The notes below the pieces were generated by a model, which had not been told where the DNA came from, made no database searches, and saw only the letters and a list, made by a program, of their open reading frames with translations. DNA of 64,000 nucleotides from Parelaphostrongylus tenuis (Eukaryota; Nematoda; Chromadorea; Rhabditida; Metastrongylidae). Of the stretch, positions 9,361 through 59,814 are shown one piece after another. Each line of letters opens with the position of its first letter. Position 1 is the first letter of the stretch. The stretch spans positions 1 through 64,000 of the forward strand of contig JAHQIW010002032.1 in NCBI GenBank assembly GCA_019055375.1, in the 5' to 3' direction. A program made the translations under genes and the position numbers.

Positions 9361-9433
9361 AGCGATTTCTGACGGTAGTCGAGCCCGAGTTTCATCGATA
9401 GCGAGGACGTTTGCTACCACTACACCACCGAGC
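9361..9433 (-). repeat. tRNA-like element, family A (IR1 right arm)
   Basis: Mirror copy of 1011-1077. Read on the minus strand it has GTGTAGTGGTAGCA and a B-box relic around GGGCTCGACT. It is flanked by the same GAATGAGTGG / CCACTCGATTC inverted ends. Confidence 0.6.
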
Positions 9434-9606
9434 TGCATTCGCGGCACCACTCATTCTTCAACATCCCTAAGAAATTGCGGCTATTAGTTTTACAGTGGCT
9501 GCGCTCAAGTGGGTTAATAAAGCGAAATCGCATACTCGACCAAACCTGTTAGAGGTTCGTGACTGACATCTAACATAGAGATGTTGAAGAATGAGTGGTG
9601 GTACGA

Positions 9607-9680
9607 ATGTACCTCGATGGTGTAGTGGTAGCAGCGTCTCCGCTATGGATAACAGGCCGGTTCGGCTCCCGTGTGGGGTC
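9607..9680 (+). repeat. tRNA-like element, family A, opposed to the previous one
   Basis: The A-box-like stretch is GTGTAGTGGTAGCAG and the B-box-like stretch is CGGTTCGGCTCC. With 9361-9433 it forms a head-to-head pair separated by about 170 bp, the same paired layout seen at 780-1080. Confidence 0.6.
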
Positions 9681-9724
9681 TTATTTCGCTAGCTACTCAA
9701 GTTTCTTAAGTCTCATAATTATTA

Positions 9725-9898
9725 TTTGAGCGAACTTGTCATGTGGTCTGTTATGGGCTCATGTACAGCCCGATACATAACGGACTGGTCATAAGCCCAT
9801 TTATGAGACCACATGACATGTTCGTCAAACAACGAGTATGAGATATAATTGATTTTGGGCGTGGTCTAAAGAAAACACTCCAAATAAACGGTATAAAT
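9725..9898. mobile_element. Hammerhead-element relic (IR1 right arm)
   Basis: Mirror of 551-720: TTGTCATGTGGTCTGTTATGGGCTC at the left, an inverted partner near 9806-9830, then GGGCGTGGTCTAAAGAAAACACTC. The last stretch is a diverged copy of the element's other end. The catalytic core is absent. Confidence 0.6.
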
Positions 9899-10432
9899 AG
9901 ATGTTTTATCTTCATTTTCTTATCGCTCATAAACCTCTCCATACGAATTCGTGTTCATTCAATCATAATCGCAGAATTAGCTGAGGTCCCCTAACGATTT
10001 GCCACATGTAATATAGCCGTTACCTTAGAGTATAAATGATGGAATAAATTTCCAGCCCCTGAATTACGACCATATTTTTTCACTTGTCACTCCACGCGGT
10101 TGTCGCAGGCTGGACGCTCTTCATAGTATTATAATTTTGTTACAAGTTCGAGACTTATATCGCCGCTACGGTAAAGGTACTGTAGTTCGAAGAAAAACAA
10201 CGGAGGAATTCTTTGATTCTAATGGTTTAAAGAGCAGCGCCGGTGCTTCTCAACAGAAATAAAAGGCAATTGTACACCGTTATTGTTTTTGGAAGATTTG
10301 CGTGTATTGTTGTGAGAAGTTGTTCTAGATTGCATACTGCTGACATGCAGGAGTTGTACTAAATTTTGTGCTACTATGAAAAGAATTCCAAAAGTTTTGT
10401 GTAGTTGCTGGTCGTAGAATCTCTGGAGATAA

Positions 10433-13102: not shown

Positions 13103-14859
13103 CATGACTCTGCGTGATAGCCTCCTTATAATATTGACGAGCGACGTTATCCACTCTTCTCATGATGACTAGGCTCGAAATTATTCAGAACAATATTTAT
13201 CTGAACAGTAATGACGGACTTTTCGGCGCTTTTGCACTGATTAGAATCTCGGAAGTTCGGAATGACATGCACTGAACACTCAAGCATTTTCTTAATCTCA
13301 GCAAAGGAAATTCTTGCTTAAAGTGTGATTTGAATCTCATGTAGCTTCTTATAAACACCGACCGTTCTGTTCTTTGCAAGTTTCCGTTATTGAAGGCAAG
13401 CCCCACGGTCTTTAATGCATCAGGGATATGCCTGACTCAGCTTAGAAAAAATCGGCATGTGGTAAGGTATAATACCATATATGGTTACCATATCTGCCCC
13501 TCTCTGAGATTTATTTTTTGAATTTTCTGAAAATTTATGCCGATTACTTCGTCAGCGTTTCAAGCAAATGTTGTTTATCTATAAAAAATCTTGTAAGAGC
13601 CTCTAGATTCAGATGCAAAGTGGTTTACCCATTTTGAAATTCTATTTATCTTTAGATGCTTTATAAAGGATTAGTTGAATCATACCTAAACTCATGCAAT
13701 TTCCTTCTCTACCGCTGGCTCCATACAAGTAGATTGCCTGTTTAACAGGCGATCATAAATTCAATTCCGTTCTAGCTAGTGCGTCAGTGCTTGGCGATGC
13801 TTCAATTACTGCAGCCAATTGATCTAAATGTGCACATTACACTCGAAAATGCAAGCCAATTTCCATTCGAGTTGTCTTAGAAGGATTTAATGAGCTTCAA
13901 CTGTTTATTTAATAATCTAGAGTATTTGGGTCTACTTCTGTGATCAGCAAATGGCAAAATATCTTCACGAATATAAAATGTTTGCGCACATAATATAGAA
14001 GGTTTCGATATTTTCGCCAGTGCGATCATCTCGCTGTTACCTAAAAACAACTGTATCAGAATCGGTGTGTTGCGGGGAAGGATCTTATGTTGCTCTTCCC
14101 AACTGCGTCTGTTTTATGCCTTTTTTCGAGAGTAATATTGAGCAGCGTTTTTTTATTGCTGTACTGTTCTCCAGTTCCTTCTGGTGCCGATGACCGAGTG
14201 GTTAGTGATGTAAGTTATCAAGAAACAATATTCCAGTTTGACCTCTCAACCAACATTCGTCTGCATCATTCAACGTACGCCTTACTAAACGGTTAGCTAA
14301 CCTCCAAGATCGTAAGGATAATCGTCTTGATCAGCATTCTACAACATTCTCCAAGAAGTCGAAATTCCGAGGCGGCAGCCAAAGCAGCCAATTCGAAGAG
14401 CTTTGCGGAAAATAAATGCGAAGAAACGAATCGTGTTACTTGTGATCGGCACAATAAATGCGCAGACAGATTCGTGAAAAAGAAGTCGAAAGTTCGCTTG
14501 AGAGTTAGCCATTAAAGTCTTTGTCGTGTCCAGAGAGAAAAACGTTAGCGAACGATACTAAATATACCACTGCCTACATAATCAACAGATAGTGAACAAT
14601 CAGTAACTCGAATATCTAACACGCCTCCAATCACAATACCTGCCAGCACTGTCGAAACATCCAAAGCGAACATTCCCCTTGAATGAGTCTTCTAGCACTT
14701 CTTCCGGCATGTGCAACATTTCCATTATGTGTCAACTTTCTACAGCATCTAACACAAACATCTACATCTTAGTGGACTGGGCTGTCAACATATGGTCTAC
14801 CAGTGGTCCAGTATTAGTCCGAAAGTGGCCACTTTAAAACTATACGAAGAGTTGACAAG
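13103..14859. other. No recognisable gene or repeat
   Basis: AT-rich sequence. A frame at 14087-14296 starts with a hydrophobic stretch and could be mistaken for a signal peptide. It has no continuation, splice context or recognisable family, so it is left uncalled. Confidence 0.4.
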
Positions 14860-15330
14860 CAAAATATCGCCATTCTTTAATGATATTGCTAACAATGTAA
14901 GAAGAAGGGTTTGACATGACAAAACAATTTTGCCAAAATTAATCACTACCACACTTCAAAAAGTCATGTGGATATTGAAATGAGACAATATGGGAGCGAA
15001 AAGCAGCGATCAACAATCACACCCCCGTTGCTTCGCTGATGACATCGTCCTCATAACCTCACTCATCAGCCAAGCGGAGCGATTGTTGCCTGATAACAAC
15101 GACTGAAGATATATTGGTCTCCAACTAAATATTACGAAAACGATGCCCATGAGGAACGAATTGGTTTCGTTGCTCCCACACACGCTTATCAAAATCAATA
15201 TCACCGAATGGTCCACTTACGTCTATCTAAATCGGTAGATACGTGATGATGGACCTAGCTCTGGAGTTGAGCATGTGGAAGCGAGCAGTTTGCGGAGTGT
15301 TTAAGAGGATCGAGAATTCAATGAAGAGAA
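14860..15330 (+). pseudogene. RTE-type reverse transcriptase fragment
   Basis: Conceptual translation in broken frames matches the central RT of the element at 42284-44051. It has a PKLITTTLQKVM-like stretch, CFADDIVLITSLISQAERLL (RT catalytic FADD box), then LQLNITKT and TYVYLNR. Stops and frame changes occur between these blocks. The endonuclease and C-terminal parts are missing. It is a dead internal fragment of the same LINE family, on the plus strand. Confidence 0.85.
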
Positions 15331-17991
15331 AATAGGAATTATAAATAGAAGAGTTATATTCTATGAAAAATACTATTAGTCAAGTGCTCATCCAACGGTG
15401 ACACAGTACTGGCTTGCCAGTGGTCCAGTGGTAGAATAATAGAAGGTTGAAGAAGCACTATTCCTTCGGCCCTTTCAATTCGCTCCTTTTTTTGTACCGC
15501 AGATCCCTGCCTGAAATTCCGTAGTGAGATGTGATAATAACATGCGCCTACTTAGAATATCTCAACAGTTGAGATCGATTTTATCTTTGCCAAAGATACC
15601 GTTAATAATCACAGCAAACAACTATCTATGAGCTTCCTAATGACAGAAACAAATTAATACATGTACGCCAAACCATAACTGTTGTTACGCTCTTTTCACA
15701 GCAAAATGCCTTTCAACTTATACGTCGATTTTCACACTGTTCTTTGACAGATTTCTTGAATACCATACTGAAATCAGCAAAGCAAACACCTTCTACTACG
15801 ATGTTTTGTTAATTTTAATACTAGATGAGAAAAACTCAGTAATGGAAGGCAAGCATTTACATTCGACTATTTTTTTAAACCTCTCTCAGAACAGTGTTTA
15901 ATCCGATAAGATTTTTAAGAATTCCCTATGGTCTATTATGGTTTACAAAGTCTTAGACATATGTTTCGGTCTTCCAGGCTATCAGTAGCACGATGCCTTC
16001 CGTTTGAGCCAGCCCTTGTAGGATGGCGGACTATTCTCCCTGCATATCTAGGAGTCGAAGAAGAACACTCTGCACCTGTCTCACGTGTGATTCACTTGAC
16101 ACACGTGCGGTGTAACATCCTCGACGTCAATTCCTTTATAAGTATAGGGTGTACCCGTCTCCTACATGGGATTTGCTCAAGCGAGAGGCACTGTGCTACT
16201 GATGAGACTGAAAGACCAGAAGGCGTGCCTAGCACTTTAAAAGTGCTATGAAAGATCCCACGAAAGGATGAAAATAATTGGAATATAAACGATGGGATGT
16301 TCGAACTGAGTGGTAGGAGGGTAGGGATGGCGGTGAGATCGATGGAAAAGCCGACTTTCAGGTCTTCTTACCATAGTAGGCCACTTATTTGGGAATGCAG
16401 TTTTCAAGAAGAAAAGAAGCATTCATTATGATTTTTAAGAATGCTTAAAGCCTCACCGAAGTTGCTACATCAGAGCCAAGCAAGTTTCGGACGTATCGTC
16501 CCCCTCAGTAGTGGGCGACGCCCCACACTGAACCCTATTTTATATCACGGACGAAAAACGCAGCATATGATATTGTGTTGTCACCAGTTTTTCAGTCGTG
16601 ACATTCGTCATTTATTGATTATTATCGCAACTTCCAAAAGTTTAAAAAAAGATTTCGTGTCGAAGTAAACTCCTGCGTTGGCATTTTTTTTTACATGATC
16701 CATTATCACCATTTGCTGTGTGGGTCTCAGCACTTCTTGCAATTGATTTGTTTTTTCGTGTTTATTCTCAAGAAAGTCTTCATGCATTTAACGTGTTTTT
16801 TCGGTCAGAAGCTGAGGATTTCGCATTCCCTATGATCGTCGTAGTATGACAGTCATCAGCATTTTACTTGGAATCTTAATGGTAGCCGAACTAACGTGTG
16901 CGTTAATTGCTTGCAAAAGAGTGTTGAGGATGGCCGGATCAACGCCCTGCTCATAACTTTACTTGCCGATACCTCGTATCACTAAGCACTGCGCTACCCA
17001 GCCCCCTTTTTGAACAAATCGTCACATGATGATCCTACTGAAGAAACATACCTAAATGGTTATGGAAATTTTGAGCTCAGCTTATCCATATATCTTGAAA
17101 TTCAAATGCTACTAGAAAATTGGTTGAACAGATTCAGGATCAACATGTCTACGAAATTCACTGACCGCAGGTTGACCTTAGAATGAAAAAGTAACCGAGT
17201 GAAAAGTTAGAGTTCAGAAGCCCGCCGGAAGTCCTTGAGCAGACACGTACTCTAATCGATCGGTATTCTTAGCCACACATCAGCGCGCTCTGTCCACTCT
17301 GGGCTCTCATGTCGAGCTCATATCTCTGACCATTGCCGAATTAGTGGCGCCGCCCACTCCTTGGGTGCGATTTGACGACCGTCGTTCATTTATCGCCCCT
17401 CCCTGCCAGCAACCTGTCGCCATGGCACCGGGCCACGTCTTTCTAGGCTAAAGATGTGGTCCACCGCTGCTCTCTTCCTGCACGGTCCTTCCTGACGACG
17501 GGCCAATAAAATTTAGCAGTATGATTCTAATTTATATTATTTATGTCAGTAGGATGGTACTACGTCGACGCAGGTGAGCCAAAATTTCCTACGATTTTGA
17601 ATACTTTGATTTTTCAAACTTGTTTCTTCGCAACAGCCGCCGGTGCTTATATGTTAGGCGGTCACTAATATATAAGCCGATCTTGTTCGCTTGCCAAGAA
17701 CTTTTTATCGAAATGTTAATAATAATGATTAAAAAGCTCAAGTCCCCGGCTATAACTCCACGTTAACCGCTTCTCAAAACACCCTTTTATAACACTGTAG
17801 CATCCAGAATAAGATTTCGCTTCACACTTGCCTTTCTCCTTCATTTTTATCATGCGTATAAACCGCTAAAAGCACGAAAAGCACTTCAGCTTGTAGAGAA
17901 ATTTTTGTACTGTCAGAATCAGCGTTTTTACCTAAAGTGTTTGCCGATGCGCTAATGTAGTACCCAATTGAATAACATTATTTAAAACCAA
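15331..17991. other. No recognisable gene
   Basis: A 107-codon frame at 15928-16251 and a 75-codon frame at 16441-16668 have no motif or splice support. A GC-richer stretch at 17270-17510 is unlike its flanks, but I cannot assign it. Confidence 0.4.
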
Positions 17992-18018
17992 TATGTGGAG
18001 TGCTGTGCAAAAACGTTT

Positions 18019-18089
18019 GCGTCAGCCGGGATTCGAACCAAGATCTCACTCTTTCCGGGAGCGTATGCTAACCGTTGCACTACCGACGC
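18019..18089 (-). repeat. tRNA-like cloverleaf, family B (left arm of IR3)
   Basis: Almost identical to 18357-18427 in reverse orientation, and able to form the same acceptor, D, anticodon and T stems. One T-arm base differs (CTTGG for CTGGG). Confidence 0.75.
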
Positions 18090-18356
18090 TCGTTGTTGCA
18101 CAGCACTCTTATTTTACGCTACAACGCGTTGTCTGCCAACAGCCAACCGTCGACGGTTTGGCGGGGCAGCCGCCATCTGACGGACCACCGCAAGTGGCAG
18201 TCAAAATAGAAAGAATTTAGACTGATCATCGATATCCAATGTCTGTCAACACAAGTGGGTTCAGTGCCGATAGCGGCTGCCCCGCCAGACCGTCGACGGT
18301 TGGCTGTTGGCAGACAACGCGTTGTAGCGTAAAATAAGAGTGCTGTGCAACAACGA

Positions 18357-18427
18357 GCGTCGGTAGTGCAACGGTTAGCATACGCTCCCGGAAAGAGTGA
18401 GATCTGGGTTCGAATCCCGGCTGACGC
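18357..18427 (+). repeat. tRNA-like cloverleaf, family B (right arm of IR3)
   Basis: All four stems can be drawn: acceptor GCGTCGG/CTGACGC (7 bp with one G-U), D stem GTGC/GCAT, anticodon stem CGCTC/GAGTG around loop CCGGAAA, and T stem CTGGG/CCCGG around TTCGAAT. The B box GGTTCGAATCC is perfect. The anticodon loop would read GGA, but position 33 is C where tRNAs have U. No CCA is encoded and no clear poly-T terminator follows. Many diverged copies exist, so I read it as the best-preserved member of a tRNA-derived repeat rather than a tRNA gene. Confidence 0.7.
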
Positions 18428-18455
18428 AAACGTTTTTGCACAGCACTCCACATAT

Positions 18456-19120
18456 TGTGTATACTATAAGATCATACCACTGCAAGTGGCAGTCAAAATA
18501 GAAAGAATTTAGACTGATTATTTAAAACGCCATCGACCACCCCGCCCTCCTATCCCCGTTCCGTGAGATGGCCGATAAACAAAGTTGCCGAAAGGGTTCA
18601 TAGATGAGCAAATTTGCGAGAGGAAGCCACAGCGACGATTTACTAATAAGGGAATCATCTAATCTATGGCGTAAAGCGATAGTGATCTAGCACATTATGC
18701 GTTAAAGTGGCGGCAACTATTGTTATTTTACTGAGGATTTTTTTACCGCCTCGGCAAAAGCTCTAGACAGAACGCATGAATATGCCACCATGAAAAATTC
18801 TCTAAACGGTGGTATGCTCTTTGTGCTCCCAGCAATTTATACTCGCGGTAAAAGTGAAGGCCAAAAGCAAGTGAGAAAGAAAATTTTATTCTGGATGCTC
18901 CAGCGTCATAAAAGAGTTTTCTGAAAAATCGGCGACGTGTAGTTGTAGCCAGAGATCCAGGCTTTCTAGTGTCAATTAGCATTCCTATAAAAAGTTCCTG
19001 TCCAGCCAATGAGATCGGTCTGAAAATTTGCCGCCGGCTCACATACGATGGTTGTGTAGTTAGTGGCACAAGACGATTTTGGCATGATGATATCTTTCCG
19101 AAACCATCTGCTAACCTAAT
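18456..19120. repeat. Dispersed repeat at about 18870-19010, otherwise unassigned
   Basis: 18880-19010 resembles 32660-32800 (shared TTCTGGATGC-CAGCGT-ATA and AGCATTCCTATxAAxAA-TTC stretches). It more distantly resembles the nested inverted repeat inside the IR2 arms (20520-20620, 29830-29920). A 108-codon frame on the minus strand crosses the repeat and is not called. Confidence 0.45.
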
Positions 19121-19558
19121 AATGTTGAGTGGTGTTCAAAACTTTCGCCTCGGCGGGATTCGAGCTCGCATTACACCCTATCCACTGGAGCGGGCTCTAA
19201 CTCGTTATGCTACCAACGCCTATTTTACCACTCTTTCTACGCTACAATGTTTATATTTATATTGTGTACATACTATTAGGTACATCTGTAATGTCATATC
19301 ACCGCTATAAAGCGGCTAAATATGAAAAAAAAACAGAATTTCTGTCTTTGATACGCATGTCCAATATGCGTCAGCGTGACTGGGTTCACTGTCGATATCT
19401 CTCCAGACCAAACCATTGATGGTTGAATGTTGACAGATTGACACTTTGTAACGTAGAAAGAGTGGTTGCAAAACATGCGTCGGTAGTGCAGTGGTCCACC
19501 CGCCCTGGATGGGGTGAAATGCGGGTTTGGCAAAAACTTTGCACCTCACTCAACATTA
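19121..19558. repeat. Inverted repeat IR4 with two opposed tRNA-like units
   Basis: Left arm 19121-19253 (AATGTTGAGTGGTGTTCAAAACTTT...) and right arm 19442-19558 (...AACTTTGCACCTCACTCAACATTA) are diverged reverse complements. The tRNA-like parts are 19147-19219 (minus, with CGGGATTCGAGCTCGC) and about 19478-19538 (plus, GCGTCGGTAGTGCAGTGGTC). The architecture is that of IR3 but more decayed. Confidence 0.8.
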
Positions 19559-19969
19559 CCGGGTTTACTTATGATATCATATCACCGCTAATAAAGAGGT
19601 TAAATAAAAAATGAGAAAGTTTTTGCACCATTGCGAACGGCCTCATAATCGATATCGCCAGTGGTGCACGATTTTTATTTTCCAACAAAGACTTTTTTCA
19701 TTGTTTCAGGAAATACTTTAGAATCTTTGTGAAGGATGGAGCGGAGCAGGGAGGCCACCTACGGTTTCAACATGGCGATCAGTGGCATCTAGGCGGCTCA
19801 CATGTAAAGTGCAATTTTTGTTATTCAATTACAAAATTTATCCTCTTCTAAGAAACTTCAGATGCAGCGTATGACTCTAATAATGAAAGATTTTCACTGC
19901 ACGTTCTTGTGCTTTTCGTGCTTCCAGAAAGGTAATAGTTGCAGTGAAATCTTTTGAATAACTTTCAGC
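19559..19969. other. No recognisable gene
   Basis: AT-rich sequence between IR4 and the second giant inverted repeat. Nothing else seen. Confidence 0.4.
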
Positions 19970-21353
19970 AACTATTCGAAAGCATAGATCTCGGAGATTT
20001 CAAAAATGTCTGTTTTCTAGAAACATCTTTGCAGCACTGTATCAGTGGGAATGAAATTATGTTTCTCACGCGTCGCACCTTCACGCGAATTTTCCTTATC
20101 ATCTGAAAATTTTTCCTGCACTTTCTAAAGATTTCTAAATTTTCCTGCTAAAATCTTGAAAAAGTCTTGTTCTATTGTTCTGTATGCTAAGGTTTTCCTA
20201 TCTTATTTATTAATACCAAATAAACCCGCCAGTATGCCTAAACTCAAACAACCCAATCCTATTCATTAAAAGCATATGTATGTGCAAAGGAAATCTCGGA
20301 GGGTCAATGTCAAATGTTTTCTGAACCGTGCTTTACGATCGATACACGGCACTCACACGTGTGGCCGGTAAGCAATGCGCGGCATGTGTGGAACTCAATC
20401 TTATTCTCCTTGTTGTAGTGCAGTAAAAAGGTCCATTGAAAACCAGCACAGTATAATCGCCGAATTTTACGCTATCGAAAGAGTACCAGTGGTTTAGAGG
20501 AAGAAGTCTGTCCAACGAAAATGTGAGCGATATTACGCGTCGCGCGTGGAATGCAATTTTATTTCTAGTGCTACAGAGCTGTAGAAGGCTACTTGAAAAG
20601 ACAAGTATTTAAGAAAAATCTTTGTTCAGCAAAAAAGGTTTTCTCAGAAATCTTTTCCGATAACAGAAAAGTACCTATGGTTCTTCCAGAGCGAGATAAT
20701 GTTTGGATGATAGTGTGGTGAAAGAGGACGATGGTGGGAACTTGTTTGCCTGCCCTGAAAACGATCTGTGCAACATATCCGAACAAAATACCACAGACAC
20801 GACTCTAGAGGCGGATGCGGTCGGATCGTAATTTCTTCATTATACAGTCCGCTCTATAACACCTTATTAAAGCGTGGCTAGTTTTTGATTGATTATGAAA
20901 GTTTGGTATAACATTTTTTTGAACACTTGGTGTTTTAATTTTAAAGTAAAGGACGAAACAGTTCTTCTCTTCGAACCCAGTGAGTTGCAAACTTCAACTC
21001 CTCTTTTTGTAAGGAATCAGTAAACTCTCCTTTTCCTTGTCAGTCATTATTTCCTGGTCGATGTTCTGATCTCTATTTTGGTTTTAAGTAGATCCAATCA
21101 CTGCTTTGTATGATTTGATGCATACGCCCCTACGCCTTATTTTGTGTAGCAACTGCATAGGGTAACAACAAGTTTTACTCCTCTTAACTTACACTTTTGA
21201 GACAATGCATATGGTGTGATCTACCGCCTGGAAGGTGACCACACTTTTCCTGTGTTTCTGAATTCATAATTCTAAGCTTTTTATTCAAGCACTATAGCGG
21301 CGGTATGATGTTACACGTATGCATCCAATAATGTTGAGGGATAAAAAACTTTG

Positions 21354-21424
21354 AACGTCAGACGGGATTCAAACCCGCATTTCACCCTTTCAGGGGTACG
21401 TGCTCATCATTGTTCTGCCGACGC
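21354..21424 (-). repeat. tRNA-like element, family B (IR2 left arm)
   Basis: Minus-strand B-box relic (GGTTTGAATCCCG read on minus) and a GCGTCGGCAGAAC start, preceded by AACTTTGAACGTC. It is opposed to 21526-21598. Confidence 0.6.
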
Positions 21425-21525
21425 TCCTATCCAACCATTACTTTTCGACGCAATTTTGTCGATTTGTCAGCAGCCAACCGTCAACAGTTTGGCCTGGAGA
21501 GCCGATATCGGCATTGAATTCCGGA

Positions 21526-21598
21526 GTGCAGGTAGTGTGATGGATAGCACGCGTCCTCGGAATGGTTGAGATGCAGGCTCGAATTTCACACGACGTTC
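21526..21598 (+). repeat. tRNA-like element, family B (IR2 left arm)
   Basis: GGTAGTGTGATGGATAGCAC as A box, GGCTCGAATTTC as diverged B box, followed by GTTTTGCACATCACTTTCGCATTAT. The last stretch is the common 3' flank of this family. Confidence 0.6.
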
Positions 21599-22920
21599 AG
21601 AGTTTTGCACATCACTTTCGCATTATTGTATATATACTTTCGTTTACATTTGTAGTATTGTTTTCAATGTTTCAGTAACTTTTATGTTATTTTACATGGT
21701 TTTTCACGGTTTTTAGAACAATTATAACTCTAATATCACATATAAAACTCATTACAAGTCCAGGCGTGATGTTCTTGGTTATTGGTAGTTAATTCACCAT
21801 AAAATGTTGAGCGGACCTCCTAGTGTTGGTTGAAAATATTGAGTCCTCATGCTAGCCAGGGACAAACTGATCGCTAGAGGTACTGGGATTCTCACAGCAA
21901 AATGTGATACGGGTCAAGTAAAGTGTTAAGGTGAAAAGTTATACCTCGCAGTTCTCATGCTTCTATTCTTTGCCATTATCGTGGTGCATTTGTGTTGAAA
22001 AAATGTAACATTTTCAAAAGTTAGTAAGTTGATGAGTGTGAACTCCGTGTGCTACACAAGAATAAACAAGTCAGTATAGATAGCAAGAAGCAGCTTTTCA
22101 CAACAGAACATAACGCAGAGTGTGTTGGATAAGCGGCCGATTGAATTCATTAGCAAGGAACCAGTGTGCTTCGGGAAAAAAACTGCGAGATGGAAAGTTT
22201 GTTGATATCTTCATACAGAGTACCACATGTATGACGTTACGTAAACGAAATTTTCAGTGTCCTGGTTTATGATAGAGAATTTGGAACAATTTTTTAAGGT
22301 CACTTTTCCGTTGAATCACTGTCACTTTTCTTTACCAGCGTACTTGCACACATAGGTTCTGGAGAATCGTGACACCTAAGGGAGATGCATTGCAGTTTAT
22401 GCGGAAAGTTTTTAATTTTTCGATACCTAGAGGTATTACAGTTACCATTCGAATATAGAAAAATCATCAACACAATGCAGTTCCGACCCTTCGCAGCCCA
22501 TGCACAATGCAAGATCAGTGCTTCAGTTCAAAACAAGAGGCAAAGATAAGGCTACCGAACCGAGTCGTGGAAGAGGGAGAAGAAAGCCTTAGTTGGGGTG
22601 TTGCTGTTTTTATTGGGATTTTATTGGTTTCTTTCGATATCCTGCATTTCTGAGGTAATATGTCCTACGTAATTTCTGAAGCTTTTGTTCAACAATTTGA
22701 GTCTACTCTACATGCCTTTCTCACAGTCTTGTGCGTAGAATTGGAGTGGAATCAACAGTGATTTAAATGGATCAAGTTGTATTCTTTTCTAATCTACCAA
22801 TAAATTTTGAGTTTAGGTATGTACTCTGCCCCGTTGTGACATTTTTATATACTTGAGTATGCACTTCTTGAGTTTTTGTTCTGTGAATCTTGTTCTCTGA
22901 TTTGTTGATTAATGAACATG

Positions 22921-23586
22921 TAAAAAGGATCTTGTCTTATGTTTTTAAAAGTCGCTCTGGTTTTTTTTTTCAAAGAATTGGTAACTTTGGACATGGTGTC
23001 TTTTTTTACAGTTCCTTCCACAACTAAGGATCAGGTTATACTACCTCCTTTTCTTATGGAGAACTCACCTTTTTTGTCGTTCTAGGTAATTTTTTTCTAG
23101 AGCGTAAGTGAGAATATTCCTCGGAACACATACAGAATTTGCTCAAAAATGAAAACAATATAGGAACTGAAGAGGAAGAATGCAGAAATATTCAGAGAGC
23201 GACAAGTGTGCCACTACTTTTTAACAAAACAGAATATATGTTTGTGTGACGAATATTTTTGAGAGTTATTTACATAGACCTGTATTAACAATTTTCTGAA
23301 AGTGATATGTCAGTGCGTTTCTAAGTTTTGTTTATGCTGCCGGTTTTGACTGAGATCAATCAGACATATTATCCAGCTGTTAATTGTGCGAAAGGGTTTA
23401 TAGCTCCAGGTGAGGTTTTGTGAAAGGAGACATTTCTGAATCAATAACGCGTTAATGTATTTTGAAGTTGGCTGCCCATAACAAATAAACAGCCTCTGCG
23501 CTTAAGGAAAAATTGAATAGGATATCCGCGGATTGGTCCCAACCTCTAGAAACGTAGCATGCATACGACGTTCGATCGGTTCTAAA
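22921..23586. other. IR2 core, left part: no gene seen
   Basis: AT-rich and single copy by eye. Confidence 0.4.
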
Positions 23587-23654
23587 TACTCTATAGATCC
23601 TTTCAATTTTATTTGAGCCAACATGTCATGTGGTCTGGTAAGGGCTCTTGTACA

Positions 23655-23697
23655 GCCCGAGGCACGTGTTTCGTCCTTACAGACTCATCAGCCGGGC
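23655..23697 (-). ncRNA. Hammerhead ribozyme copy with altered cleavage site
   Basis: Minus strand: stem I GCCCGG/UCGGGC, CUGAUGA core, stem II GUCU/GGAC, then GAA. The sequence before the cleavage position reads ACACGUGCC where the other copy has ACACGUGUC. This breaks the conserved A15.1-U16.1 pair, so this copy is probably inactive or weak. Confidence 0.75.
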
Positions 23698-24091
23698 AGA
23701 ACCCGTCGTCTGTCGATGTTTTTGCAGTCAGTTCTCTCGGGAGCCTTACACTCCTTATATATAGTTATCGACGACGTACGCTTCACACTCTATGTCAGGT
23801 GAAACATTCACCTAACACAGAGTGTTTTCGCACTCCATTGCTTGCTGGCTGGTATTTTTATCATATTATACCTTTCGTTCAAGTGAGCGTGGTCTTAATA
23901 AAGCACTTGAAGGAAAGGTATAATATTATAAAAATACCAGCCAGCTAGCAATCGAGTGCGAAAACACTCTGTGTTAGGTGAATGTTTCACCTGACATAGA
24001 GTGTAAAGCGTACGTCGTCGATAACTATATATAAGGAGTGTAAGGCTCCCGAGAGAACTGACTGCAAAAACATCGACAGACGACGGGTTCT

Positions 24092-24134
24092 GCCCGGCTG
24101 ATGAGTCTGTAAGGACGAAACACGTGTCTCGGGC
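24092..24134 (+). ncRNA. Complete type I hammerhead ribozyme
   Basis: Stem I is GCCCGG (24092-24097) with UCGGGC (24129-24134). Core CUGAUGA is at 24098-24104. Stem II is GUCU/GGAC closed by a GUAA tetraloop (24105-24116). Core GAA is at 24117-24119. Stem III is ACAC/GUGU (24120-24127) with no loop. Predicted cleavage follows C24128, giving NUH = GUC. Every conserved hammerhead position is present. The loop-less, self-complementary stem III is like the minimal hammerheads of Penelope-like elements and retrozymes, which work best as dimers (known from those families). Activity here is inferred. Confidence 0.88.
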
Positions 24135-24252
24135 TGTACAAGAGCCCTTACCAGACCACATGACATGTTGGCTCAAATAAAAATGAAAGGATCTATTGAA
24201 ATTTGAGCGTGGTCTTAATAAAGCACTTGAAGGAAAGGTATACTCTATAGAT

Positions 24253-25475
24253 TCATTTGCACCAGTGTGAGTGGCCGCCATGGAATCTATATGAGTCGTT
24301 CGCTTTCTGTACACTCAGTCCGACATAAAGTACTTTTTCTAGTGCGCTAACGAAGGATGATGTTTGGAAGGACGATATCACATCATACGCAAAATTGAGG
24401 GTGATATATGAGATTGGGAGACCTCAGATCAAAGGTAGAAAGTTAATAACAGAGTTTTTTTTGTTAACATTGGTATTTTGATTTATTGTTAGAGAAGTAA
24501 TGACAGCTTTGTTTTCAGATTTGAAAGCGTTGATTAAATGTGGTCAGAAAGAATGTTTCGAGCCATATCGAGGTTGGTACGTTAGTGGCTCACTATGTTT
24601 CGAGGGTCTCGCCCGCATCATCAGAACCACGTGGCTCGCATTTCCCCCCCCCCCCTAGTGATAGTAGAGATGAGGAAACGTTGCTACGGAGAGATACCGT
24701 GAGATTGTGGTTTCCACTTTTCACCATTCCATTCCACTCGATTGCATATGGCTGCCTGGTCAGACATTGCACCTTACATTCAACGCAGCAACCTCGAAAA
24801 GCCTTAAAACAATTTCTCTGACTGTATTTAACGTTCATAACGAGGTTTTATAGACCGGGCGATTGCAATTTGCGTTGCCTGAATAATAGCTGCATGCCAT
24901 GAGAATAGTGTGATGAGAGAATGAAAGCCACATACCCATGCTATTTTATCATATCAACGTTGCCCTCGTCCCTAGTACTAACAGGGTAATCTATGTGTGG
25001 AAGCATGGGCTCTGGTGAAGTGGCCGAAATCGCCGATACGTACGTAATCCGCTGACTAACCGACCCCGAAATGGCCTAGAACATTTTCTTTGACTATATT
25101 AACCCTTTGACTTCCATAGACGCAAATTTCAATGTCCAGCTGGCAAACGTCGACTGTGTGACACCTCCTCCGCCGCCCTCACCCCCAGCGTGAGAACGAC
25201 TCCACCTTCTCCTCCGCGACCAACCGCCAGCCTGGAAATCACTGTGTGTCTCACTCCTCTCTGCCACTTAGCACTCAGTCCATGGGAAGGTTACTGGTTC
25301 GATCCCTTATCTCAACACTTCACTGCAGTTTTTTTGGTGTCATCTTATTGTTTTCACTGCAATGTGCTTGAATCACTGACATACCATATCACTTCATATC
25401 TCATATAGTAACATTGTAACACAAGCGAATAATGCATGTAATTTATTTATCATCATATATCTTACAATAGTTAAA
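24253..25475. other. IR2 core, middle: no gene; degenerate tRNA-like and poly-C
   Basis: A C-tract of about 14 bases sits near 24645-24657. Around 25240-25320 a B-box-like GGTTCGATCCC follows a CACTTAGCACTCAGTCC stretch, possibly a decayed tRNA-derived repeat. Frames of 70-93 codons cross this region without motifs. Confidence 0.4.
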
Positions 25476-25575
25476 TGAGCCAACATGTCATGTGGTCTGT
25501 TGTGGGCTCTTGTACAATCCGATATATGTGCTTCGGCCTTGCAGCCTCGTCAGTCAGACAGGCCCTTCGTTTTTA
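25476..25575 (-). mobile_element. Hammerhead element, partial, degenerate ribozyme
   Basis: Starts TGAGCCAACATGTCATGTGG like the intact element. On the minus strand the core reads CUGACGA (25553-25547) and stem II GGCU/GGCC with GCAA loop, but GAAA has become GAAG and the stem III region is lost. A further piece of the element's other end (GTGCGTGGTCTCAGGAGAATACTCGAAAC) lies at 25892-25920. The intervening family A tRNA-like element may therefore have landed inside it. Confidence 0.65.
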
Positions 25576-25660
25576 GTACACAATCGCCGTCAGATAATCA
25601 AAGATTGGTGGCTGACAGATAACACAGAGATGTTGAAGAGTGAGTGGCTGGGCAAAACGT

Positions 25661-25733
25661 GCCTCGGCGGTGTAGTGGTAGAGCACGCGTCCCCGGATAG
25701 GATGAATCGCGGGTTCGATTCCCGCCCAAAGCC
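25661..25733 (+). repeat. tRNA-like element, family A, best copy
   Basis: GCCTCGGCGGTGTAGTGGTAGAGC resembles the 5' half of a tRNA-Gly-type sequence, and GGGTTCGATTCCCGC gives a perfect B box and T stem. The acceptor ends do not pair well. Flanks are GAGTGAGTGGCTGGGCAAAA upstream and CACATTTCTCATTATCACTC downstream, a weak inverted repeat. It is probably a SINE-like repeat, and a tRNA gene is unlikely. Confidence 0.65.
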
Positions 25734-25949
25734 ACATTTCTCATTATCACTCAATTCTCTTAAGAAATTATAAAACATCATAACACTACGAAAAAAAGGC
25801 AGTAAAAACAATAGAATACTGATTATTCTTATTTGAACCGACATGTCATGTGCCAACATGCCACATAGCAATTGCGAGATTCATTCAATTATGTGCGTGG
25901 TCTCAGGAGAATACTCGAAACAAACTGTATAATATCACCATTTATTCAA

Positions 25950-30545: not shown

Positions 30546-31499
30546 TAAAATTCTAGTGAACTTATTTAGACAAAATGTCCCGTCAAATGCCGTTTCAACA
30601 CCACAAAACCTTAGACTAGAGCTGGATAATTTGAGAAAAAATTCAATCAAAATGCTTGAAAAAGTACTGAAATCCTTGGCCAACATTGAAGCAAGCGTGC
30701 TGGTGTTCCGCTAGAAGCTTGATGCTGAAGTAATAAAGTACTATTGATGTTCAGTTCTGCAGAATCTCTAATAACAAAATTATGGACGTACGCCTTCAAC
30801 TTCAACATATCTAGCGTTTGTGGGACGAGTCTCTCTTCCCAAATGACAGGCTGACTGGATATCCCTTCCTCCATTGACTCTGTTTATTTCGCTCTTTTCT
30901 TGAACACATTCGATTTTGTTGTCCTGAAATGCCAAGTGCTAGATTCCACATGATATAAATTGTAAGTAGTGAGAAAAAGCTTACCTACCCTCTATAGAGC
31001 CATAAACAGTGAAAATACCTAAGGATCATACATGAAAGTGAGTACTGTTCTATGTCTACTCAGTAAAGAACGGCCAGTAGGCGGCTGTGGAGTACTATGT
31101 GGACCAATGGGAAACTTGAATGTGCTTGCTTGATTCAGTCAATGTTAGTGAAATAACAAATTATACAGAAGCGAAAATTACCTTAACTATATTCCAGCTC
31201 GATTTTTTTGTACTACTCCTCGAAATGTTAGGTTAAGAACGTATCTTGACTTTTTCGCTCAAGTATTGTTGTACGCCTTGCTTTTCCTTTTTTAGAGGCA
31301 CAACCTGGAAAAAATGTTAGAAAATATCAAAGTACGTAAAGCAGAGATAGTTACTTCATTTTCTGAACATCACTCCATTAAACGTATCCTATCTCATAGC
31401 AGAACAATAAGCATCACACCGTTTGTTTTGAGTGCTTTCTTAGGGCCACGCTCACATTACAATATGCCAGATAATCACTCCTCTTACTACTCTTAGTAT
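30546..31499. other. Unassigned; possible plus-strand coiled-coil exon
   Basis: A plus-strand frame open from about 30555 to 30714 reads as charged, heptad-like sequence (LRLELDNLRKNSIKMLEKVL). At 31286-31334 an acceptor-like CTTTTTTAG precedes HNLEKMLENIK and a GTACGT donor-like site. These could be remnants of a gene, but no continuous model can be built. Confidence 0.3.
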
Positions 31500-31640
31500 A
31501 AGAAACTGAGTGCCCCGAGAAGATTGGCTAAAGATGAAAAAGGTACCGTCCGACTGATGAGACCGTCAAGGTTGAAACACGTGTACCAAGCTCTATGAGC
31601 CAGCCCTTATATAACAGACCACATGCGTGGCTCAAAAAGA
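31500..31640 (+). mobile_element. Hammerhead element, 5'-truncated copy
   Basis: Begins inside the unit at GATTGGCTAAAGATGAAAAAGG, a stretch shared with 53700-53760. It continues through a hammerhead and ends at CAGACCACATGCGTGGCTCAAA, the common terminal sequence. It lies just downstream of the last exon of the minus-strand coiled-coil gene. Confidence 0.65.
31548..31591 (+). ncRNA. Hammerhead ribozyme with damaged stem I
   Basis: Core CUGAUGA (31554-31560), stem II GACC/GGUU with loop GUCAA, GAA (31574-31576), stem III ACAC/GUGU and cleavage residue A31585 are all present. Stem I pairs only partly (CCGA against CCAAGC), so cleavage is doubtful. Confidence 0.65.
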
Positions 31641-31964
31641 TGATTATCTGGCATAATAAGTATCACATTGTAGGACTTACGCCACTTATAAGTTCAGGAG
31701 CGTTGTGACCATTCTTTATCTGCTTGTTTATCATTTCTTCTTTTTTCTGCACGATATGACGGTCTGCTTTTCCGTCTGCAGTAGAGACTTCATCATTCCG
31801 TTGTTGTTCACATCTGTTTCCAACCTTCTTTGCTGATTTCTTAATAATTCCATAGAGAAATCATTACACAGTCTGAACGTATGACATCTTCTGAACCAGA
31901 TATTCGTGAACAAAAATTTTAAAAAATCGGTACTTTTTGGTTGCATGGAGGCATAGATGTTCAC

Positions 31965-33504: not shown

Positions 33505-33660
33505 ATATATGTATACATACATTTGTATATATGCGTACGCAAGCATATATATGTGCATACATACTGTACACATTTACATATGTAGACGTATGTGGGCCAT
33601 ATGCATACATCTCACATATACGTGCTTGTATACAAGTATATATATATATATATAGTAAAT
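33440..33660. repeat. AT dinucleotide microsatellite and purine-pyrimidine alternation
   Basis: A pure (TA)n run at about 33467-33500 is embedded in 220 bp of alternating TATG/CATA-type sequence. A second (TA)n lies at 33640-33653. Both strands are open for over 90 codons only because of this simple sequence, so those frames are not genes. Confidence 0.9.
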
Positions 33661-33818
33661 CCCATGACCGACTATCTATTAACCTCGGCATAGTTTAATA
33701 AATGAATAGTTTCTTCAGTTTAGCCGTTCCGAGGTGTTACTGATATTATTTATTGAATATTTGCGAAGCATACAACAATACAGTCAGTAATGCAACTTGA
33801 ATATATAATATTCGAGGT

Positions 33819-33853
33819 GGCTAACGTTTCGGCGGTTCGCCTTCGTCAGAGCC
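33819..33853 (-). ncRNA. Minimal hammerhead ribozyme in the Penelope-like tail
   Basis: Minus strand: stem I GGCU/AGCC, core CUGACGA (33849-33843; the seventh-position base is free to vary), stem II GGCG/CGCC with an extra 5' A and loop AAC, GAA (33830-33828), two-base-pair stem III AC/GU (33827-33824), and cleavage residue U33823. The tiny palindromic stem III matches the minimal hammerheads reported from Penelope-like elements. Confidence 0.75.
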
Positions 33854-33989
33854 TGAAAAGATCACATCGATCCACAATCCACTAAGCCAAAAACCTCCAT
33901 AACCCTAGTAGAAAACGTTAGACATGTGTTTTGGATCGCATAGTAGAAGGTTCATTTTAAAACACTCACCGTTTTGATCTTTGGCTCTA

Positions 33990-34498
33990 TCAATTATTAA
34001 TTGAAGACCAGGCGCTTAAGGTCAGTGCATTAGTGGGCTGTGCCTTAACTCGGACCGGAAAAATCAGCCTGAGGTATGGTTCGAGTTCACGCGTGATTAG
34101 GATGCACTCCTCTTTTCGGTTCATTTTCGGGCCTTTGTTATGTATCCAAAAGGCTTCTAATTTTTTACGCGCAGATGTTCTTGATTCCTGTGCGAGGATC
34201 GTGAATTGGACGCCGAACATTACCCTGCATGTTTTTGGTTTCTATGCGTGCCTAGTGGAGTTTTTGAATCACAGTTGCGTAACTCAGCTAGGTGCTCTTT
34301 TACCCGGAGGAATAGTGGTCTACCCGTTTCGCCAATGTACTCATCGCCGCATTCCTCGCAAGGGATCAGGTAAATTATACCCGATCTCATACAGTCGCTG
34401 TCTCTGCCGTTCGGACAAACTTTGCAGTCATTGGTTTCGCAGAGGCGGTCATACCATCGGTTGCGGACTAATTGACGCTTTAGTGTTTTTGGGGTATT
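33990..34498 (-). pseudogene. GIY-YIG endonuclease domain of the Penelope-like element
   Basis: Minus-strand translation gives GIIYLIPCEECGDEYIGE, the GIY and YIG signature with the CxxC insertion typical of Penelope-like nucleases. TGRPLFLRVKEHLAEL follows, with the conserved Arg of the domain. A frameshift near 34220 moves the C-terminal part to another frame, where RKKLEAFWIHNKGPKMNRKEE is preserved. In the intact element this nuclease nicks DNA for target-primed reverse transcription. Here it is frame-broken. Confidence 0.85.
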
Positions 34499-35740
34499 TC
34501 AACTAGCTACCGAATCATCCAAACCTGCTCTTTTTAGGCAGCGTTTAATAGCTATACTTATTTCGTTAGAGATAAAATGCAGGAGGAAAGGAACATTATT
34601 TTCGACAGACCTGTCATTTGGGAGCACAGAATTTCCTCTAAATCTAACCTGAGAAGCTCCTACCGTATCGTAGCCATTAGAGATGGCTATTTTTCGCGCC
34701 AAGCTTAAGGATTCTACCTTGTGTTCTTTCCCTGTGCACACATTTAACGCTGTTCGGAACATATTCTTAAGAAGTGCGCGTTTTATGTGTGAAGGATGGG
34801 CTGATAGGTAATGAACCAAAATGCTTTTGTTGCTTGGTTTACGGTACCATTTTGCATTGTAGGAGTTTTTGCACAGGTTGACCTGAACGTTCAAAAAAGG
34901 AAGCCAATTTGCTTTCGCTTTCTCACGGATGAACTTTATGTACTCTGACTGACTGTTCAGCAACTCAAAGCATTTGTCCATCCCCTCTTGGGTTGAGCAG
35001 ACGACAAAGCAGTCATCTATGTAACTGTAGTAGAGTAACGGCCGGCGATCGATTATTGGTCTCTCAACTTTAGACATAAAGGCTATAGCAAGTGTTGGCG
35101 CTAGTCGTTGTCCCATTGCCGCCCCTCTGATTTGAGCAAAGTAGTTCCCAGACCATCTGAAGATTAAACAGTATTTAGGCACTCTTTTATGAGAGCCATA
35201 ACCTGCCCAACGGAGAAGCCATACATGTTTGTGGCCCTTTCGTGCTCTGTTAAAAGCTCGTATATGGCTTGCATTGCGGATTCATTCGACCGCTTGTATA
35301 AAGGGCGGTTACGTCGAAAGATTCCATCACGTACGAGTTGTTGGGGGACGCGTTACGTAAATGGTCTAGGAACATTTGGGTGTTCGTGAGATGGGTTGGA
35401 ATGTGCTTCAGTAATTGGACTAGTATTAGGTTTAAAAACCACGTTATCCTGTCCGTTGGTCCGCCAACGCAGCTGATGATGGGTCTAACTTTGAAATTTG
35501 ATGGATTAGTAGACAAAAGATCATCAGTGCATACCAACTTATGAGTTTTAATAGGTAAGTATACGACGGGACATGATGGCGGACTAAGTTTTAGTTGACA
35601 GATAACGAAAGGCTTTGAACCAGTTCAGCTTGCTATTTTAATCCATTGTTGGTTCAATTTTCGATACTGTTTTTGGAATTCTTTACCGGTTGATGGGCGA
35701 TAAAGTGTGGTATCTTCAAGGTGGTTTTTTTAATGAAAAA
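34499..35740 (-). pseudogene. Penelope-like reverse transcriptase, frameshifted
   Basis: The blocks occur in order: KVRPIISCVGGPTDRITWFL, VMESFDVTALYT (first catalytic Asp block), AAMGQRLAPTLAIAFM, YSYIDDCFVV (catalytic YxDD), FLNVQV, and a KWYRKPSNK...LSAHPSHIKRALLKNM tail. This is the Penelope-type RT order, not LTR or RTE. Frame changes occur near 35270 and near 35180. The longest uninterrupted piece covers 34499-35182. The N-terminal region beyond about 35740 is replaced by the inverted duplicate. Confidence 0.9.
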
Positions 35741-35744
35741 ACCA

Positions 35745-36240
35745 CCCTGAAAAGCCACCTTAAAAAAGCCACCTTGAAGATACCACTCTTTATCGCCCAT
35801 CATCCGGTGAGGAATTCCAAAAACAGTATCGAAAATTGAACCAACAATGGATTGAAATAGCGAGCTCAACTGGTTCAAAGCCTTTCGTTATCTGTCAACT
35901 AAAACTTAGTCCGCCATCATGTCCCGTCGTATACTTACCTATTAAAACTCATAAGTTGGTATGCACTGATGATCTTTTGTCTACTAATCCATCAAATTTC
36001 AAAGTTAGACCCATCATCAGCTGCGTTGGCGGACCAACGGACAGGATAACGTGGTTTTTAAACCTAATACTAGTCCAATTACTGAAGCACATTCCAACCC
36101 ATCTCACGAACACCCAAATGTTCCTAAACCATTTACGTAACGCGTCCCCCAACAACTCGTACGTGATGGAATCTTTCGACGTAACCGCCCTTTATACAAG
36201 CGGTCGAATGAATCCGCAATGCAAGCCATATACGAGCTTT
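35745..36240 (+). repeat. Inverted duplicate of the Penelope-like RT 5' part
   Basis: Open plus-strand frame that repeats CTDDLLSTNPSNFKVRP through SFDVTALYT almost exactly as in 35270-35740 on the minus strand. It makes a fold-back of about 470 bp per arm. Few differences separate the arms (one is DHLRN to NHLRN), so the duplication happened at or after insertion. Confidence 0.9.
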
Positions 36241-36359
36241 GACCATTGACCATCAGATTTCAATAAAAACACTTACTGTCATGTTCTTTAACTTAAGTGC
36301 CATCTGCTCTTTCTTGCTATTCGCTTGCTCCTCCATCGTTTTCAGAGCTTCTTCTTTAC

Positions 36360-36955
36360 ATAAGATCACATAAGACGCGTATGTGGTATGTGGTGATGGC
36401 ATAGTGTACAATGACACTGGTCCATAACCACTTTCAGTCGATGGAGTTCGGCTAGTAGACCAAAACAATTCATAAAATCGACTGTTTCTAAAACCTCGTA
36501 ATAAACATTCAAAATAATTCCAAAAAAAAAATCGGTGAAACACCGGTGTATGGCCCTGGCGTACCAACCTCGTTTAGGCTTAAAACATTCTTTTTTTGAA
36601 TTATTTTGAATGTTTATTACGAGATTTTAGAAACAGTCGATTCAATGGATTAGTTTTGTCTACCAGCCGAAACCATCGACTGACTGACGGTGATGGACCA
36701 GTGTCATTGTACACTATGCCATCACCACATACCACATGCGCCTCCCTCCTTGCTACAATGCAGGGCTTAATGTGGGGCGGGGGTCACTGACGAGGAGGAC
36801 GAACCTCCAAAACACCGGTGTATGGCCCTGGCGTACCAACCTCGTTTAGGCTAAAAACATTCTCTTTTTTGGATTATTTTGTATGTTCATTACGAGGTTT
36901 TAAAAACAGTCGATTTATGAATTGTTTCGGTCTACTAGCCAAGCTAAGTTTAGTT
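36360..36955. repeat. Local direct and inverted duplications in the coiled-coil gene
   Basis: AACACCGGTGTATGGCCCTG plus the next 100 bases occurs at 36539 and again at 36812 in the same orientation. A segment with CAATGACACTGGTCCAT...AACCTCGTAATAAAC at 36408-36522 recurs inverted at 36596-36720 and in part at 36865-36945. The copies include coding sequence of the exon that ends at 36277, so the upstream edge of that exon is uncertain. Confidence 0.7.
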
Positions 36956-43160: not shown

Positions 43161-43163
43161 GTC

Positions 43164-47894: not shown

Positions 47895-47948
47895 TCCGCT
47901 CCTTCTTCTTCTGTTCCTTCTAAATACCGTTCGGGCTGATTCATCGGC

Positions 47949-47955
47949 TTTTATA
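47949..47955 (-). promoter_or_regulatory. TATA-like box of the MSP gene
   Basis: TATAAAA on the minus strand, about 55 bases upstream of the ATG. Position and orientation fit a core promoter. Confidence 0.5.
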
Positions 47956-48040
47956 CTTTTTCATTCGTATGCTAATTAATTGTTTACTCTAGATTTTTCT
48001 GATATTATGATATCAAATAAAGAAAATTGATTTTGCCTCT

Positions 48041-56424: not shown

Positions 56425-56495
56425 AATTGACTAGACTGCAATGCCGAAGCACATGTTTTGCTTTGTATAAGTGCCCATAATAGGCCACATGCAGG
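56425..56495 (+). mobile_element. Hammerhead-element relic
   Basis: TTGACTAGACTGCAATGCCGAAGCACATG lines up with a decayed hammerhead core. It is followed by AAGTGCCCATAATAGGCCACATG, the element's outer end. Confidence 0.4.
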
Positions 56496-59690: not shown

Positions 59691-59814
59691 CTACATGGCA
59701 TGTATGACTCAGAAAAAGAATAATACCAGATGTATTGGAATTTGAGCGTGGCCTTAAGAATGTATAAGAAAGCAACGGTATGATTTTTCTTAGAAGATAT
59801 TTTTGATATTCTCC

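Follow-up and report, generated by a model that had tools for sequence, protein, structure and literature searches.

A hammerhead-ribozyme repeat family of Parelaphostrongylus tenuis with the insertion anatomy of Penelope-like elements

How does a non-coding DNA unit that carries a hammerhead ribozyme come to stand in a genome as an inverted copy, a direct copy and the beginning of a further copy, all between short direct repeats? This question is raised by one locus, here called element A, in a 64,000-nt stretch of Parelaphostrongylus tenuis DNA (positions 1–64,000 of contig JAHQIW010002032.1, assembly GCA_019055375.1; hereafter the window). In this work we describe element A, its relatives in the window and a sample of its relatives in the 481.5-Mb assembly (5,105 contigs). 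We consider it highly likely that element A is one copy of a large non-autonomous hammerhead retroelement family, similar to metazoan retrozymes, whose movement depends, in trans, on a Penelope-like element (PLE) acting through the mechanism proposed below. Anatomy, termini, target duplications, polarity and template sharing were observed directly in the copies.

Anatomy of element A and its ribozyme

Element A is a fold-back insert of about 641 bp (23599–24239), bounded on both sides by identical 13-bp direct repeats, ATACTCTATAGAT; random pairs in the window match equally well at a frequency of 0.0003. An earlier note, made from the sequence alone, had read the locus as a 642-bp element with a 12-bp target duplication: the fold-back insert stands at nearly that length, and the repeat measures 13 bp, with TACTCTATAGAT contained in it. 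Self-comparison returns the layout that had been described, an antisense unit, a full sense unit and the start of the next sense unit (Table 1). The unit measures 320 bp (about 319 had been claimed) and is numbered here from U1, at 23884, to U320; the stretch of the next unit, which forms a tail, measures 39 nt (38 had been claimed), and neither end is sharp, owing to short microhomology (a few bases) with the target. The inverted arms (23590–23885 and 23904–24199) are complementary at 97% over 296 nt, and the tail repeats 23884–23922 at 39 of 39 positions with a spacing of 320. The tail ends at T2, and the outer end of the antisense arm lies at T1, the end point shared by the no-tail arms of the family. 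Both are putative starts of reverse transcription, start 1 (T1) lying about 66–71 nt and start 2 (T2) about 111–114 nt past the predicted ribozyme cleavage.

The absence of coding capacity, also proposed earlier, agrees with the lack of any Pfam family for the two open frames that cross element A (120 and 139 aa); among its open frames, searched with Pfam, no single frame joins a telomerase-like reverse transcriptase (RT) to a GIY-YIG endonuclease. The unit has a GC content of 0.43 and, folded as a circle, reaches −96.7 kcal/mol, compared with −68.3 ± 5.4 for 100 shuffles. Its 19-bp hairpin is weaker or absent in the divergent copies E, G and H, so that no claim of conservation is made; a stem joining both ends of the post-ribozyme RNA, seen in the fold of 24129–24242, was rejected as it is absent from the folds of four other copies. 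The TATA-box-like TATATATAAG located 5' of the ribozyme is, judged from its letters, a possible promoter.

The sense unit contains a full hammerhead, as had been noted: it matches RF00163 with 34.9 bits (gathering score 34; E 5.5e-5), and its predicted cleavage, at 24128/24129 (U245/U246), is the site named earlier. The cleavage triplet is altered from U to C in the antisense-arm ribozyme, and therefore only the sense ribozyme looks intact. Helix III, which consists of 2 bp and a self-complementary stretch ACACGUGU, is short and in this resembles that of PLE ribozymes; because helix III looks PLE-type, we class the element as retrozyme-like only. Covariation was measured on eight ribozyme rows from the window, to which A and H give two each, so that they are not eight lineages. 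Cells changed on both sides number 12, compared with 5.2 in shuffles (reached by 0 of 500), and the covariation score is 0.455, compared with 0.292 in shuffles (1 of 500); slid versions do not exceed 0.205. In these eight rows there is no excess of pairs changed on both sides (4 versus 3.9 in shuffles) or of further pair types (15 versus 13.8).

Table 1. Positions of element A, its parts and its relatives in the window
Feature	Position	Strand	Remarks
Target-site duplication of A, left copy, 13 bp	23586–23598	+	13/13 identity with 24240–24252
Antisense (inverted) arm of A	23599–23885	-	Outer end T1 (~U311–316), inner end U21
Complete sense unit of A, 320 bp	23884–24203	+	U1–U320; 320-nt direct-repeat spacing
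19-bp hairpin within the unit	23964–24004	+	Strong in both arms of element A
TATA-box-like sequence, 5' of the ribozyme	24026–24035	+	Sequence only
Type I hammerhead	24092–24134	+	Rfam RF00163; covariation
T1, end point of the family's no-tail arms	24194–24199	+
Tail of A, first 39 nt of the following unit	24204–24242	+	End is T2
Target-site duplication of A, right copy, 13 bp	24240–24252	+	13/13 identity with 23586–23598
Fold-back insertion C1	551–748	.	Second copy, C2, at 9696–9896
Old fold-back copy H	15923–16293	.
Insertion B	25448–25945	.	T1 arm (hammerhead degraded), segment with a tRNA, tail ending at T2; duplication 11/13
Insertion D	31406–31667	.	T2 tail left, T1 right, hammerhead-like core; duplication 12/13
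Window PLE	33655–36249	-	RT 34499–35281, GIY-YIG-like 34220–34498; left end approximate
Fold-back insertion E	53592–54001	.	Duplication 11/13
Old copy G	56240–56502	+
Fragment F	59667–59786	+	End at T2

Related copies in the window and in the genome

Eight further places in the window are related to element A, two of which (C1 and C2) are duplicates of each other (Table 1). When the 3' parts are aligned, the no-tail arms of A, B, C, D and E end near T1 (about U311–316) and the tail arms of A, B, C, D, E and F end near T2 (about U36–39). Random pairs match as well as the target duplication at a frequency of 0.0003 for D, 0.0027 for B and 0.0047 for E; for C and F a duplication was sought in the flanks and none was convincing. 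The arms of C1 meet close to the ribozyme cleavage position. C1 and C2 are borne by an inverted segmental duplication (1–2899 and 7550–10432, 93% identity).

Insertion B holds a tRNA-like segment (25661–25733) between its hammerhead arms, within one 11/13 duplication; B may have captured this segment, in the way described for Penelope, or may belong to a composite family. A stretch related to it adjoins C1 and C2 (500–1068 and 9377–9896). A palindrome at 17989–18457 (89%) has a tRNA-like sequence in each arm (18018–18089 on the minus strand, 18357–18428 on the plus strand) and is a fold-back of a tRNA-like repeat; another palindromic repeat lies at 36374–36744 (81%), with an extra partial copy at 36810–36940.

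In the whole assembly the exact 36-nt ribozyme core occurs at 1,422 places, 712 and 710 by strand, and its reversed control at none; together with the related copies in the window, this count indicates that the element is not a chance sequence. Searches by similarity gave first-look candidates, which are unconfirmed copies and of which 40 were scored for each query: 4,118 with the whole element (111 matches in the 40 scored), 703 with the ribozyme-to-tail stretch and 2,880 with the middle of the unit. The tail pattern has no match in viral contigs. Contig C1144 bears the same insertion as the window, and duplicated contigs in the assembly may make some places not independent events. The first 100 ribozyme places listed of the 1,422, which may include duplicated contigs, form 76 groups when neighbours within 800 nt are joined. 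Among these 100 places, inverted neighbour pairs are head-to-head (antisense then sense) in 16 cases and tail-to-tail in none, and eight pairs are in tandem, spaced 319–323 nt. Tandem copies elsewhere in the genome, which the earlier note had expected, thus exist, and one insertion (L055) is a plain tandem of 3.3 units with an 11-bp duplication.

Three samples of places were read individually. Sample 1 consists of 37 places picked from L001–L051 by similarity to the whole element, without L002 and without 13 redundant loci (the same place again or a duplicated contig); sample 2, of 23 further places from L052–L081 picked by the ribozyme-to-tail stretch, with seven repeat loci left out; and sample 3, of 22 places (L082–L103) picked by the ribozyme pattern alone, from the top of the list, namely 12 of the 16 inverted-pair groups and 10 of the 56 single ones. 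Fold-backs make up 36 of 37 places in sample 1, 14 of 23 in sample 2 (L060, with a 30-nt inverted arm seen by eye, is a possible fifteenth) and 18 of 22 in sample 3, including six of its ten singles. Weighting by the 76 groups (16 plus 0.6 of 56) puts the share of fold-backs at about 65%, an estimate based on those ten singles.

Target sites, outer ends and templates

Duplications at other copies, which had been set in advance as a check on the reading of element A, are frequent: direct repeats with a match score of at least 10 flank 48 of the 82 places, compared with 0.57% of 3,000 mismatched flank pairs. Their lengths range from 10 to 17 bp, with a mode of 12 bp. One of the 48 matches, that of L060, lies inside the element, and 34 of the 82 places have no clear duplication. 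Empty sites were sought by joining the flanks of nine insertions and scoring 40 candidates. Three of the nine joined flanks match elsewhere across the join: those of L070 at 95%, and at 85% at three more places; those of L031 at 90% at two places; and those of L018 at 76–84% in a repeat. For the other six, the 40 scored candidates returned the insertions' own flanks alone. The empty site of L070, read directly, has a single ATTACAGTCAGT where L070 carries two.

The outer ends of the fold-backs follow a rule, one end at T1 and the other at T2. In sample 1 this combination is found in 27 of 36 fold-backs, with one T2/T2 and eight having another end, and in sample 2 in 12 of 14, with two having another end; these two samples were picked with queries that contain T2 (and T1 also for sample 1) and hence favour the rule, from which bias sample 3 is free. 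In sample 3, scored by eye with the same windows, 14 of 18 fold-backs have T1 and T2 ends, or 16 if U27 (L083) and U58 (L103) are allowed; the other two exceptions are L093, which is T2/T2, and L094, which is near T1/T1 (U294 and U312). When the three samples are pooled, 53 of 68 fold-backs are T1/T2, two are T2/T2, none is T1/T1 (L094 being near it) and 13 have another end. T1 and T2 outer ends separated by a tail of about 40 nt are the published PLE signature.

The passes through the unit within one insertion (arms or laps) often share private variants. In 60 insertions with 153 passes, 1,409 ordered comparisons asked whether a minor variant of one pass recurs in another pass of its insertion; it does so in 528, when 72.7 are expected from the frequency of such variants in other insertions; shared ancestry of the source copies could add to this sharing. 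The median distance is 3.8% within insertions, compared with 6.0% between random insertions. Sharing is uneven: it is high in L038 (28/34), L034 (42/60) and the 3.3 laps of L055 (26/37), and near zero in L054 (0/44), L043 (0/25), L050 (0/23) and L075 (2/61). This suggests that both arms, or several laps, were often copied from one RNA or from RNAs of a single source, and sometimes from different RNAs. In a nearest-neighbour test on arms, the within-insertion distance is the lower one in 14 of 73 cases, with six ties (medians 4.1% within and 2.2% to the nearest other insertion), which at face value is against a shared template; we gave the comparison of minor variants precedence over this test, since a minimum taken over many other insertions makes a biased reference.

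What form the template had is a separate question. Sharing of variants would fit a circle or a homogeneous multimer. Circular RNA, which the earlier note had named along with multimeric RNA, gains from the variants often shared by arms and laps; it is weakened in that some insertions mix templates and that uncleaved multimers fit equally. Variants on opposite sides of the cleavage site (11 spanning pairs) are no less linked than others, an observation that argues weakly against linear cleaved monomers used end to end. The inner ends show no sharp pile-up near U246, as those within U241–260 amount to 3 of 72 for sample 1 and 4 of 28 for sample 2; C1 and C2, by contrast, turn near U246. End-to-end use of linear self-cleaved monomers is thus not favoured.

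Mobilisation by Penelope-like elements and the alternatives

A PLE lies in the window itself (Table 1). Its RT matches PF00078 with an E of 4.4e-8, and its GIY-YIG match is weak, below the Pfam cut-off; a hammerhead-like motif has its predicted cleavage near 33823. A head-to-head inverted part (35253–36240, 96%) has its outer end within the coding frame and not at the pseudo-LTR (pLTR), and the best candidate for a target duplication is 10/13, none being convincing. The nearest PLE proteins are from Angiostrongylus, Ancylostoma, Necator and Haemonchus, the Ancylostoma protein aligning at 58%; together with a major sperm protein frame in the window they indicate a strongylid nematode. A search of the genome for PLE RT gave 13,367 candidates and 147 scored matches, nine rows of which have an 893-aa open frame, others reaching up to 978 aa. 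Among the 147, RT neighbours within 5 kb are head-to-head in 10 cases, tail-to-tail in none, and in tandem in five, at 2,984–2,986 bp. Contig C2880 has a PLE tandem array at 13985–23605, with four RT matches at 2,985-bp spacing, three of them with the 893-aa frame; this PLE is possibly recent. A 161-base piece between tandem copies of the 893-aa family (L105) contains a hammerhead-like motif, its predicted cleavage lying 72 nt (by eye) before the start MPRLIDS...; the motif is named after its core, CUGANGA...GAAA, and Rfam reports no hammerhead on this piece. Kinship in sequence between the unit and the pLTR was considered for two resident PLEs and rejected: for the first, 97% of random stretches score as high, and for the second, the score is 39 with a shuffled maximum of 53. 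As there is no identity beyond chance between the unit and either PLE, we draw the link between enzyme and substrate from anatomy. The mobilisation by a PLE RT that had been proposed for element A is supported by the two-site termini, by the tail, by the head-to-head polarity and by a resident PLE whose copies are likewise arranged in tandem and head-to-head.

Excerpts of two published studies describe how PLEs insert. A typical Penelope insert consists of an inverted pLTR, a direct pLTR, the frame and a pLTR, with duplications of 8–10 bp; the inverted pLTR is shorter by about the tail, and an optional 31-bp tail is found on one inverted pLTR (PMC3846280). The PLE protein cuts and extends both target strands, and two adjacent internal RT start sites delimit the stretch that forms the tail (PMC11167929). 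By analogy, the unit or a tandem array would be transcribed from a TATA-bearing unit, and the ribozyme could cut the transcript into 320-nt RNAs, which would perhaps be circularised, or the transcript could be used uncut. A PLE protein would bind the RNA 3' of the ribozyme and cut both target strands about a dozen bases apart, and each cut strand would serve as a primer within the RNA, so that reverse transcription would begin at T1 from one strand and about 40 nt further, at T2, from the other. The two cDNAs would run away from the target, sometimes for more than one lap, before their ends were joined; this would produce a head-to-head fold-back that has a tail at one of its ends and is flanked by an 11–14 bp duplication. 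If only one strand were extended, a plain or tandem sense copy would result. In this scheme the enzyme, the priming from both strands and the processing of the RNA are what we infer. Several observations count against it: about a third of the copies are not fold-backs and 13 of 68 fold-backs have an end outside the windows, and in the available account of the PAc in vitro system the start sites are alike on both strands, ribozyme mutants have no effect on insertion and the ribozyme is idle without protein (PMC11167929). A stricter version, which we hold tentatively and at somewhat less than an even chance, is that each fold-back is one symmetric event, in which a pair of PLE RTs, primed from both nicked strands, copied self-processed (often circular) ribozyme RNA, one of them from T1 and its partner from T2. 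If so, this family would preserve in its copies natural traces of how PLEs integrate when they act in trans on a ribozyme RNA, with priming from both strands and at two sites.

The same working with another ancestry would apply if the unit were the pLTR of a further autonomous PLE family and the copies its ORF-less or solo-pLTR derivatives. The order of a PLE pLTR is indeed kept, with the ribozyme followed by two start sites within about 70–114 nt, and the hammerhead has the short helix III described for PLEs in parts of PMC7229834 and PMC7761336. However, tblastn with PLE proteins was run on L001–L081, which stand for 60 different places and their duplicates, usually with some 1.5 kb of flanking sequence, and cover a small part of the genome. 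It gave RT-like stretches at seven of these places; of the two inspected closely, L046 and L015, both are degraded and neither is linked to the unit in the position expected of a pLTR. We regard this ancestry as a real possibility that is nevertheless unlikely. Fold-backs could also arise by self-priming (snap-back) of a single cDNA or antisense template rather than by priming from both strands. The private variants shared by the arms of many insertions are in keeping with this, and self-priming has been argued for palindromic Penelope junctions in a section of PMC3846280. It is made rather improbable by the arms, which in most cases stop one at T1 and the other at T2 and differ in their inner ends, and by L054, L043, L050 and L075, in which arms or laps share almost no minor variants, as a snap-back copy should not give.

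Two explanations without any PLE have very little in their favour. Long inverted arms and a target duplication would suit a fold-back DNA transposon or MITE that carries a ribozyme by chance, but the ends are asymmetric, with a tail on one side, arm length and register vary between copies, plain tandems exist (L055) and the inverted pairs among the places listed are all head-to-head; we find this reading scarcely tenable. An artefact of assembly or amplification (palindromic chimeras) might be thought of, since the assembly is fragmented (5,105 contigs) and palindromes of other repeats are also present in the window, but arms are commonly several per cent apart, duplications flank the whole fold-back, junctions vary from place to place and empty sites exist, all of which leaves an artefact extremely improbable.

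Metazoan non-LTR retrozymes, as defined by Cervera and de la Pena in 2020, are non-coding, multicopy units of 170–400 nt with a type I hammerhead, found as tandem dimers and longer, with a GC content below 50% (0.43 in the present family), duplications above 4 bp when present, and PLEs in the genome (PMC7229834, in part). The family described here shares these traits and differs in that most copies are fold-backs with a tail and helix III is short and PLE-like; the words 'nematode' and 'inverted' are absent from the main text of that paper. Other marks of these retrozymes are canonical helix sizes with loop-loop contacts, as opposed to the minimal PLE type, unit-length linear and circular RNA in abundance, and self-cleavage in vitro. 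With PLEs (Pen2a of Adineta vaga, excerpts of PMC3846280; Poseidon of Anolis, excerpts of PMC11167929) it shares an inverted copy, a direct copy, a 30–40 nt tail, duplications of about 10 bp, head-to-head order, tandems and a hammerhead 5' of two RT starts; unlike them, it has no reverse transcriptase or endonuclease, its duplications have a mode of 12 bp compared with 8–10 in the Penelope examples, and it has no sequence identity to the two resident PLEs examined. The W-elements of schistosomes are likewise multicopy hammerhead repeats of helminths, thought to be mobile, but they are from flatworms; the passages of PMC8490949 that describe them include no T1/T2-like rule, and its main text does not use the word 'tail'. 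Plant LTR retrozymes, with a type III hammerhead, LTRs, PBS, PPT and a 4-bp duplication, are unlike the type I hammerhead and duplications of about 12 bp found here. A literature search, covering titles and the openings of abstracts, with subscription papers mostly outside it, returned no nematode hammerhead retroelement and no fold-back retrozyme.

In its working, element A thus resembles a PLE insertion, and in its appearance a retrozyme; it is not itself a PLE and is probably mobilised by one. PLEs have so far been proposed as the movers of retrozymes from shared type I hammerheads, tandem copies and co-occurrence in genomes (relevant sections of PMC7229834, PMC7761336 and PMC11722881), and minimal PLE hammerheads may self-cleave as dimers (PMC7761336, in part). 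The novelty lies in how many insertions of a ribozyme element are of the PLE type, and how clearly so, and in their head-to-head pattern with one T1 and one T2 end. The family gives structural evidence for that proposal, a PLE insertion signature on a ribozyme element in a genome that has a PLE with an 893-aa open frame. Its 320-nt size and high copy number make it a statistical handle on PLE integration; the T1/T2 pattern, polarity and template sharing are testable genome-wide, and the RNA is small enough for biochemical assay.

Two coding stretches of other kinds were seen in the window: a second reverse transcriptase remnant, apparently not of the PLE, on the plus strand at 43158–44051 (RVT_1, E 7e-8), and a major sperm protein frame on the minus strand at 47631–47960 (PF00635, E 1.9e-14).
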